From an uncultured Fimbriimonadaceae bacterium (lineage in GTDB: Bacteria; Armatimonadota; Fimbriimonadia; Fimbriimonadales; Fimbriimonadaceae), in the NCBI GenBank assembly GCA_937961665.1, contig CALGMO010000110.1, positions 1-35,892 of the forward strand: DNA of 35,892 nt, in the 5' to 3' direction. The position numbers were made by a program, and so were the translations under genes. Below the pieces are notes generated by a model. That model saw only the letters and a program-made list of their open reading frames with translations, searched no databases and had not been told where the DNA came from. Numbering within the stretch: position 1 is the stretch's first letter; the number at the start of each line of letters is the position of its first letter. Shown here piece after piece: positions 19,475 to 21,479 of the stretch.

Positions 19475-20278
19475 CTAGAAGGCCAGTCGCTGGAAGATGC
19501 CGCCGCCGTTCTCGTCGCTCTGGATGGCGAACCACTTCGGCACGCCATACCGCTCGCAGATCGCGGCCACGCCCCGATCGGCCTCCCGCGCGGGGCCGTC
19601 GATCATCTCCCGGCTTCGCCCCTTCATGGCCTGCAGCGCGCTGATCGCCGACGATGGATCCCTCTCGGCCCCGGCGATGGCCTGGAGGATGTCTCCCATC
19701 ATGCCGCCGGTCTCCCGGAGCACCTGGTCGTACCGGTCGGCGATCGGCTGGCACTCCATCGGCGGTTGGCGGCTCAGGAACTTGGCGTGCAGGTCGATCC
19801 ACGCTCGGCGCATCGTCTCCGTGTCCATCCTCGCGCGCTGGGCGGGCGAGGGCGCTGGCGGTGCCTCGCCTCCCCCCGCTTCGGCCAGCAGACCCTGGAG
19901 GGCCTCCAGCTGCGCCCCCGCGGAGAGCGAAGCGAGACTCGTCAGCGCGCGGGACACTTGGTCCCGGGCGATCTCCTGCCGCTCGGCCTCGATCGCTCGC
20001 AGGAACTCCAGCCAGTCTCGCACCTCCGGCGGCATCTGGGGCGCGGGAGGAGCGGACTGCCGGAATTCGGGGGCGGGCGGCGCCGCCTGACGCAGGGGCG
20101 GGGCCGTCGGCTCGGCGCTGGCGCGCAAGGGCGCCGGGCTCGCGGGCTCAGCTTTGGCTCGGAACCATCCCGCTGCGGCCAGTCCGCCCAGAAAGGCGGC
20201 CAGGACGAGCGCCGCGGCGGCCGCGATCCACGGCCAGACGTTCCTGCGGGGCGCGGAGGCCGGTTTCTGCGGTTCCAT
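19475..20278 (-). CDS. Single-pass membrane-anchored helical protein, unknown
   Basis: The protein has 267 aa. A short cytoplasmic N-terminus is followed by one hydrophobic segment at about 16-38. A Pro/Ala-rich linker spans about 44-85, and a helical soluble domain runs to the end. No Cys lipobox is present. I recognise no family. Features worth noting are the helix DWLEFLRAIEAERQEIARDQ and a C-terminal ERYGVPKWFAIQSDENGGG. On the minus strand TAAGAT (20290-20285) ends 7 bases before the ATG, with no Shine-Dalgarno. That supports both the start and a leaderless transcript. It is divergent from tRNA-Sec, with 57 bases between them. Confidence 0.75.
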   Translation of the reverse strand: MEPQKPASAPRRNVWPWIAAAAALVLAAFLGGLAAAGWFRAKAEPASPAPLRASAEPTAPPLRQAAPPAPEFRQSAPPAPQMPPEVRDWLEFLRAIEAERQEIARDQVSRALTSLASLSAGAQLEALQGLLAEAGGGEAPPAPSPAQRARMDTETMRRAWIDLHAKFLSRQPPMECQPIADRYDQVLRETGGMMGDILQAIAGAERDPSSAISALQAMKGRSREMIDGPAREADRGVAAICERYGVPKWFAIQSDENGGGIFQRLAF

Positions 20279-20335: not shown

Positions 20336-20430
20336 GGGAGCGCATGGGTGCTGGTGTGCCTCGCGGTCTTCAAAACCGTTGTGGCCCCGAAAAGGGGCCG
20401 GGTGGGTTCGATTCCCACACGCTCCCGCCA
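20336..20430 (+). tRNA. selC: tRNA-Sec (anticodon TCA), selenocysteine tRNA
   Basis: The gene is 95 nt including encoded CCA. The acceptor stem is GGGAGCG (20336-20342) with CGCTCCC (20420-20426), followed by discriminator G and CCA. The D arm can form six pairs (with wobbles) closed by a four-base TGGT loop, as in bacterial tRNA-Sec. The anticodon stem GCGGT/ACCGT holds the loop CTTCAAA, with TCA at 20370-20372. A long variable arm has a perfect 6-bp stem (20383-20388 with 20394-20399). The T arm is GTGGG-TTCGATT-CCCAC. The eighth acceptor pair typical of tRNA-Sec would be C-A here. The long variable and D arms plus the UGA anticodon make a suppressor or tRNA-Ser very unlikely. No selA, selB or selD gene is in the window. 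Confidence 0.95.
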
Positions 20431-20438
20431 GAATGGCC

Positions 20439-21311
20439 CTACATCGACCAAGGGGCCGCGTGGCGGTCGTGCTCGTCGGACCACCGTCGGTGCAGCTCGT
20501 GGATCGCCTCCACAACCCTGGGCTCGAGCGGCTTTGCGTCCTGGCTCAGCCGGGCGAACTCCCCGATGCGCTCCGGCAGGGCCGTGGAGCCGACCGTGGC
20601 GACCACGTTCGGTAGGCCCAGCGCGTAGCGCACGCAGAACTCCGGCCAGCTCTGGGCGTCCGAAGCCAGATAGATCGGCTCCACGGCGTCCCAACGGGGC
20701 TGAAGGTAGCCCGCCGAAGGCCGGGAGCCGCCGCACACCGTGCGCATGGCGACGATCGGGAACGCCTTCTCGCTCAGCGCGTCCCAGAGTTCGTTCAGCA
20801 CGAACCGTTTTAGCGGGTTGAGGTAGAAGATGTACGCGTCCACCAGTTCCGCCGCGGCCCCGTTGCGGATGGCCTCCAGGTAGGCGGGCGGGCTCCAAGG
20901 CCAGCACTCCAGAACGAACGCCCCGACCAGGCCCTCCTCCTTCAGGCGCAACAGCGACCGGACCCCCTCGCCCGGCGACGCGACCTCTTCCGCCAAGGGG
21001 CCGCCCAAGCACAGCTGGCCCACGTCCATCTTCGGCAGCCCCAAGGCCTCGAGCTGGTGCTCCACCTGGCCGCGAATCTCTTCGGGCGTCGACCAGCCGA
21101 TCTTGAAGAGGAAGCGGGGCACCGTCTGCCGGTTCTGGTCCAGCGCCTCTCGGATCACGCGGAGTGCGTCGCCGTACTGGTGGCTGGTGTGGAAAGCCAG
21201 CCCGAGGTCCGCGGCGAACCGGGCGGCGGCGACCCTTTGCTCGAAAGGGATGCCTTGGTCGCCCAGGCGGGTCGTGCCGTAGACGAAACGGGTTAACGGA
21301 AGTCCGGCCAT
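20439..21311 (-). CDS. Aldo/keto-reductase-like protein with altered catalytic tetrad
   Basis: The protein has 290 aa with the overall AKR layout: YGTTRLGDQG start, a first strand ending in FHTSHQYGD, FLFKIGWS, and a late VVATVGSTALPERIGE that corresponds to the NADP-binding segment near the C-terminus. The usual tetrad is Asp-Tyr-Lys-His. Here the Asp position reads His 41, Tyr 46 and Lys 70 are kept, and the His position (in DVGQLCLGGPL) reads Cys 101. Reductase activity is therefore doubtful and the protein may do something else. TATGCT (21325-21320) ends 9 bases before the ATG. The gene converges on tRNA-Sec, with 8 bases between them. Confidence 0.8.
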   Translation of the reverse strand: MAGLPLTRFVYGTTRLGDQGIPFEQRVAAARFAADLGLAFHTSHQYGDALRVIREALDQNRQTVPRFLFKIGWSTPEEIRGQVEHQLEALGLPKMDVGQLCLGGPLAEEVASPGEGVRSLLRLKEEGLVGAFVLECWPWSPPAYLEAIRNGAAAELVDAYIFYLNPLKRFVLNELWDALSEKAFPIVAMRTVCGGSRPSAGYLQPRWDAVEPIYLASDAQSWPEFCVRYALGLPNVVATVGSTALPERIGEFARLSQDAKPLEPRVVEAIHELHRRWSDEHDRHAAPWSM

Positions 21312-21403: not shown

Positions 21404-21479
21404 GGGCGGTTAGCTCAGCTGGCAGAGCACTACAATGACACTGTAGGGGTCACAGGTTCAAGTCCTGTACCGCCCACCA
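21404..21479 (+). tRNA. tRNA-Val (anticodon GAC)
   Basis: This is a 76-nt standard cloverleaf. The acceptor GGGCGGT pairs with ACCGCCC, with discriminator A and an encoded CCA. The D arm begins TAGCTCAGCTGG. The anticodon stem CTACA/TGTAG (21430-21434 with 21442-21446) encloses ATGACAC, with GAC at 21437-21439. The T arm is ACAGG-TTCAAGT-CCTGT. The GAC anticodon reads GUC and GUU valine codons. Confidence 0.96.

Follow-up and report, generated by a model that had tools for sequence, protein, structure and literature searches.

The ordinary mechanism of selenocysteine (Sec) insertion at UGA codons is known from many other bacteria, and the system of the Escherichia coli type comprises selA, selB, selD and the tRNA gene selC. 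Reviews describe bacterial tRNA-Sec as an 8/5 molecule with 13 bp in the acceptor and T stems (PMC7609411), and earlier work described 12-bp forms in which one nucleotide is lacking or bulged out (PMC5330540). SelD itself occurs in a Sec-containing form (TIGR00476, motif UxxK), and SelW-like proteins (PF10262) and peroxiredoxin (Prx)-like thiol:disulfide oxidoreductases (PF00578) are listed among prokaryotic selenoproteins (PMC13188914). A search of the open-access literature, with subscription papers and supplementary tables outside its scope, found no treatment of selenocysteine in Armatimonadota or Fimbriimonas.

The window, which is the whole stretch of 35,892 nucleotides analyzed here, contains a genuine bacterial tRNA-Sec gene (Table 1). 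ARAGORN calls it tRNA-SeC(tca), and the Rfam tRNA-Sec model RF01852 matches positions 20336-20426 over its full length (76.7 bits, E = 3e-14), above both its gathering score of 47 and the scores of other tRNA classes. Across 41 related genomes, true matches to this model range from 66 to 81 bits, and no other tRNA exceeds 53 bits. The predicted fold has an energy of -49.0 kcal/mol (z = -2.95), and an A-U linker is present in both sequence and fold. The molecule resembles the 8/5 type represented by RF01852 in its UCA anticodon, 6-bp D stem with a 4-nt loop, long variable arm, G73 and length, and here too eight positions lie between the T stem and the discriminator; it differs in that the eighth apposition is a non-canonical C-A, as in most relatives examined. 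An earlier note, made from the sequence alone, had described a 95-nt tRNA-Sec with a TCA anticodon, a long variable arm, a 4-nt D loop and an encoded CCA, and all of these features proved right by ARAGORN, RF01852 and folding; the covariance-model run that it proposed placed the gene in no other tRNA class.

Table 1. Features of the tRNA-Sec gene and its neighbors in the window, and TGA-containing UxxC genes of related genomes
Feature	Position or locus	Strand	Evidence
tRNA-Sec gene (selC) with encoded CCA	20336..20430	+	ARAGORN; RF01852, 76.7 bits; fold
5' acceptor strand: 7 paired bases and C 20343 at the eighth position	20336..20343	+	sequence; tRNA alignment
D arm: 6-bp stem GGGTGC/GTGCCT, 4-nt loop TGGT (UGGU in RNA)	20346..20361	+	RF01852; fold
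Anticodon arm: loop CTTCAAA, anticodon TCA (UCA) at 20370-20372	20363..20379	+	ARAGORN; fold
Long variable arm: 7-bp stem, 5-nt loop	20382..20400	+	fold
T arm: 5-bp stem GTGGG/CCCAC	20402..20418	+	fold
A 20419 (eighth position), 3' acceptor strand CGCTCCC, discriminator G (G73) 20427, CCA 20428-20430	20419..20430	+	sequence; tRNA alignment
Gene without Pfam match, upstream neighbor of tRNA-Sec	19475-20278	-	Pfam
Aldo/keto reductase-like gene, downstream neighbor of tRNA-Sec	20439-21311	-	Pfam
TlpA/peroxiredoxin-like UxxC genes with TGA	L359, L364, L368, L373 (G030); L362 (G028); L369 (G010)		

The acceptor and T stems of this tRNA comprise eight positions and a 5-bp T stem, with the eighth position formed by the unpaired C 20343 and A 20419. 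The earlier note regarded this C-A as a small departure from the usual acceptor, whereas such appositions are common. At the eighth position, 25 tRNA-Sec genes from the order have G-A in 11 cases, A-A in seven, C-A in five, A-G in one and G-C in one; 24 of the 25 are thus non-canonical. When GTDB species genomes were scanned for the D-arm and anticodon pattern of this tRNA, at least 120 tRNA-Sec genes from several phyla were recovered, a motif-chosen and non-random set; among the matches listed, 101 of 120 have no canonical eighth pair. Within the same matches listed, and with phyla taken from record titles, non-canonical appositions occur in Planctomycetota (51/62, one case not assignable to the 8/5 frame), Bacillota (23/25), Armatimonadota (13/14), Gemmatimonadota (5/5) and others (9/11), and in none of three Nitrospinota. 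The C-A is therefore not an oddity of this gene, and a canonical eighth pair, absent from 101 of the 120 matches listed, is not a defining feature of the family. Compared with the 7/5 tRNA-Sec of the 12-bp branch (PMC5330540), the present molecule likewise has twelve canonical pairs in the acceptor and T stems; in that branch one nucleotide is missing or bulged, whereas here both strands have eight positions with the last unpaired. Tentatively, and with considerable doubt, the eighth position of bacterial tRNA-Sec may often be conserved as non-canonical, mostly purine-purine, as a putative feature for recognition by SelB or discrimination against EF-Tu. Where the matches listed (L223-L342) lack a canonical pair, as most do, Planctomycetota show G-G, Armatimonadota G-A or A-A, and Bacillota G-A or G-G.

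Profile searches of the assembly from which the window comes (G000, a 2.88-Mb draft in 142 contigs, 95% complete) identified selA (456.7 bits) and selD (359 bits), both above the curated cut-offs; their translations are recognized by the NCBIfam models for selA and selD, and selA is open and full-length. In this draft, selB was found neither by profile nor with the protein of the same-genus genome G002 as the query. The same SelB-query searches returned no match in the EF-Tu range from G000, whereas such matches are present in G001 and G002. EF-Tu is a universal gene, and therefore missing sequence is the simplest reading; judging from these SelB-query matches, the absence of selB is likely an assembly gap. 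The expectation that SelA, SelB and SelD would be encoded in the genome thus held for SelA and SelD; selB is absent from the draft, although G002 carries tRNA-Sec, selA, selB and selD. Across the related genomes, tRNA-Sec (>66 bits), selA and selD (above cut-off) share a single set of 28 genomes out of 41, and selB exceeds its cut-off in 26 of these 28; the remaining two, G000 and G036, are drafts. As in the E. coli-type system, selA, selC and selD are present here and all four genes co-occur in relatives; the differences are that the Sec genes of G000 are scattered, that selB is missing from its assembly and that formate dehydrogenase is not a selenoprotein here. Of 291 Armatimonadota genomes sampled, 138 have a selA match above the curated cut-off. 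The earlier note had called the trait patchy; as indicated by selA, it is widespread in the phylum, though unevenly distributed.

The selD gene of G000 reads MRLTQLVSCAG-U-ASKLGPTQLAEVL through a TGA that lies in frame at the catalytic position. In the order, 20 SelD genes were read: TGA occupies this position in 18 of them and Cys in the other two, so that the in-frame TGA at a redox position is conserved across species. The protein resembles Sec-containing SelD (TIGR00476) in its N-terminal catalytic TGA, the CAG-U-ASK context and a hairpin behind it, and the comparison revealed no notable difference. An alignment of 18 selD stretches of 60 nt, each beginning at the TGA, reveals two shared hairpins, the larger at columns 30-46 and the smaller at columns 14-26. 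In this structure 88.9% of cells pair, compared with 27-49% when it is slid by 1-3 columns, although the structure was drawn partly from the same sequences, which biases the percentage toward it. Doubly changed cells number 16, against 6.3 ± 1.9 in shuffles, and none of 500 shuffles reaches 16, although kinship of the sequences may beat shuffles without any structure. A stronger point than the percentage paired is that several pairs vary on both sides (G-C, U-A and G-U at 31-45; G-C, C-G and G-U at 34-42). Folded alone, the G000 stretch does no better than its own shuffles (z = -0.95). The covarying, SECIS-like hairpin just after the selD UGA is the predicted target of SelB. With SelA and SelD present, the in-frame TGA in selD and the covarying hairpin imply that at least one of the apparent TGA stops very probably encodes Sec, and the earlier suggestion that some TGA stops are Sec codons very probably applies to selD at least. 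Two relatives, G028 (L046) and G003 (L064), have SelD with Cys in place of Sec despite their Sec genes. The families tested yielded no selenoprotein in G003, which must therefore either encode a different one or be losing the trait.

SelD is the only selenoprotein found in G000, both in family searches of the whole assembly and in a read-through screen of 1.84 Mb (64%), the filter of which kept 333 of 400 Cys-to-TGA codons in confident ORFs in simulation, with candidates sorted by eye. The other read-through candidates in G000 appeared by eye to be neighboring genes in one frame or chance contexts. Inside the window the screen detected no gene interrupted by TGA, in agreement with the earlier reading of this stretch. 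Formate dehydrogenase, which had been proposed as a Sec protein to look for, is ruled out: across the 41 genomes, none of the FdhA matches of near full length contains an in-frame TGA, the G000 matches are weak and partial, and a few such weak partial matches among the 41 genomes contain a stop. The AhpD/CMD family was likewise rejected as a selenoprotein of G000, where it has no TGA; in G019 a weak CMD (AhpD-like) match (G019:C1:2266782-2267015) contains one in-frame TGA.

For most relatives, the idea that SelD is the sole selenoprotein of the clade was rejected, as a TGA-containing match of the SelW-like or TlpA-like kind is present in 21 of the 28 Sec-positive genomes; some of these matches were read. 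SelW-like matches to PF10262 number 13 in 13 genomes, and by TGA count all 13 contain one TGA each; that of G002 lies at G002:C57:126012-126245. No plain Cys form occurs among the PF10262 matches of the Sec-positive relatives, and the match in G009 is located about 0.6 kb from selA. Searches of the relatives with PF00578 yielded TlpA/peroxiredoxin-like proteins with one TGA, and in all six that were read Sec is the first residue of a UxxC motif (e.g., FWGFW-U-GPCKA and FWAWW-U-GPCKA). A profile of these UxxC proteins matched TGA-containing genes in 13 of the 28 Sec-positive genomes, including four in G030, two of which are close together on contig C6. G000 has no match to PF10262 and, among the matches listed, no PF00578-type match with TGA. 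These selenoprotein families are all already known: they belong to the same Pfam families as those described (PMC13188914), with the same UxxC position of Sec in the six Prx-like proteins read, and differ in that here they occur in Armatimonadota, with up to four of the Prx-like selenoproteins in one genome and neither kind of selenoprotein found in G000.

Three other explanations of the locus were weighed. That the gene encodes a suppressor with a TCA anticodon, or a variant of tRNA-Ser or tRNA-Leu with no role in Sec, would fit the long variable arm, which is also typical of those two tRNAs, but is hardly credible given the score of the tRNA-Sec model against those of other tRNAs, the D stem and loop, and a genome that encodes selA together with a TGA-containing selD. 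The fragmented state of the draft assembly would allow the contig to be a contaminant and the Sec trait to be foreign to the organism. However, the contig is not a stray one, because it is collinear with G002 over 9.9 kb at 81% identity and over 3.5 kb at 75% identity, the latter spanning tRNA-Sec; the contigs carrying selA and selD align with G002 likewise, and the GC content of the contig (0.691) is close to that of the retrieved G000 sequence (0.687), which leaves contamination with a negligible probability.

A decaying system, in which selB has been lost and the tRNA, selA and TGA-containing selD are relics, would account for the failure of both the profile and the G002 protein to recover selB and for the similar lack of selB in G036. 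The same searches, however, point to missing sequence by the empty EF-Tu range in G000, the tRNA is intact, selA is open over its full length and a species of the same genus retains selB, and decay is accordingly improbable, if less so than the other two explanations.

The gene is, with high confidence, the selC of a normal bacterial selenocysteine system, as judged from the genomic sequence. UGA is very probably read as selenocysteine in this bacterium by the ordinary bacterial mechanism, since tRNA-Sec, SelA and a TGA-containing SelD are encoded in the same genome. SerRS would charge the tRNA-Sec with serine, SelA would convert the charged tRNA to Sec-tRNA-Sec using selenophosphate from SelD, and SelB, the gene for which probably lies in a gap of the G000 assembly, would deliver it to UGA codons with a SECIS hairpin behind. 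SelD is the one predicted selenoprotein found in G000, to which relatives may add SelW-like proteins and TlpA/peroxiredoxin-like UxxC oxidoreductases. A branch of Armatimonadota thus very probably decodes UGA as Sec, and standard gene calls in these genomes would therefore truncate or lose the genes for SelD, SelW-like proteins and UxxC oxidoreductases. The results also suggest that SelD and small thiol-redox proteins, rather than formate dehydrogenase, are the basis of the Sec trait in the order. Neither point changes the known mechanism of Sec insertion.

Besides the neighboring genes in Table 1, the window contains a tRNA-Val (GAC) gene at 21404-21479, approximately 1 kb downstream of tRNA-Sec, and G002 is arranged likewise (L070).
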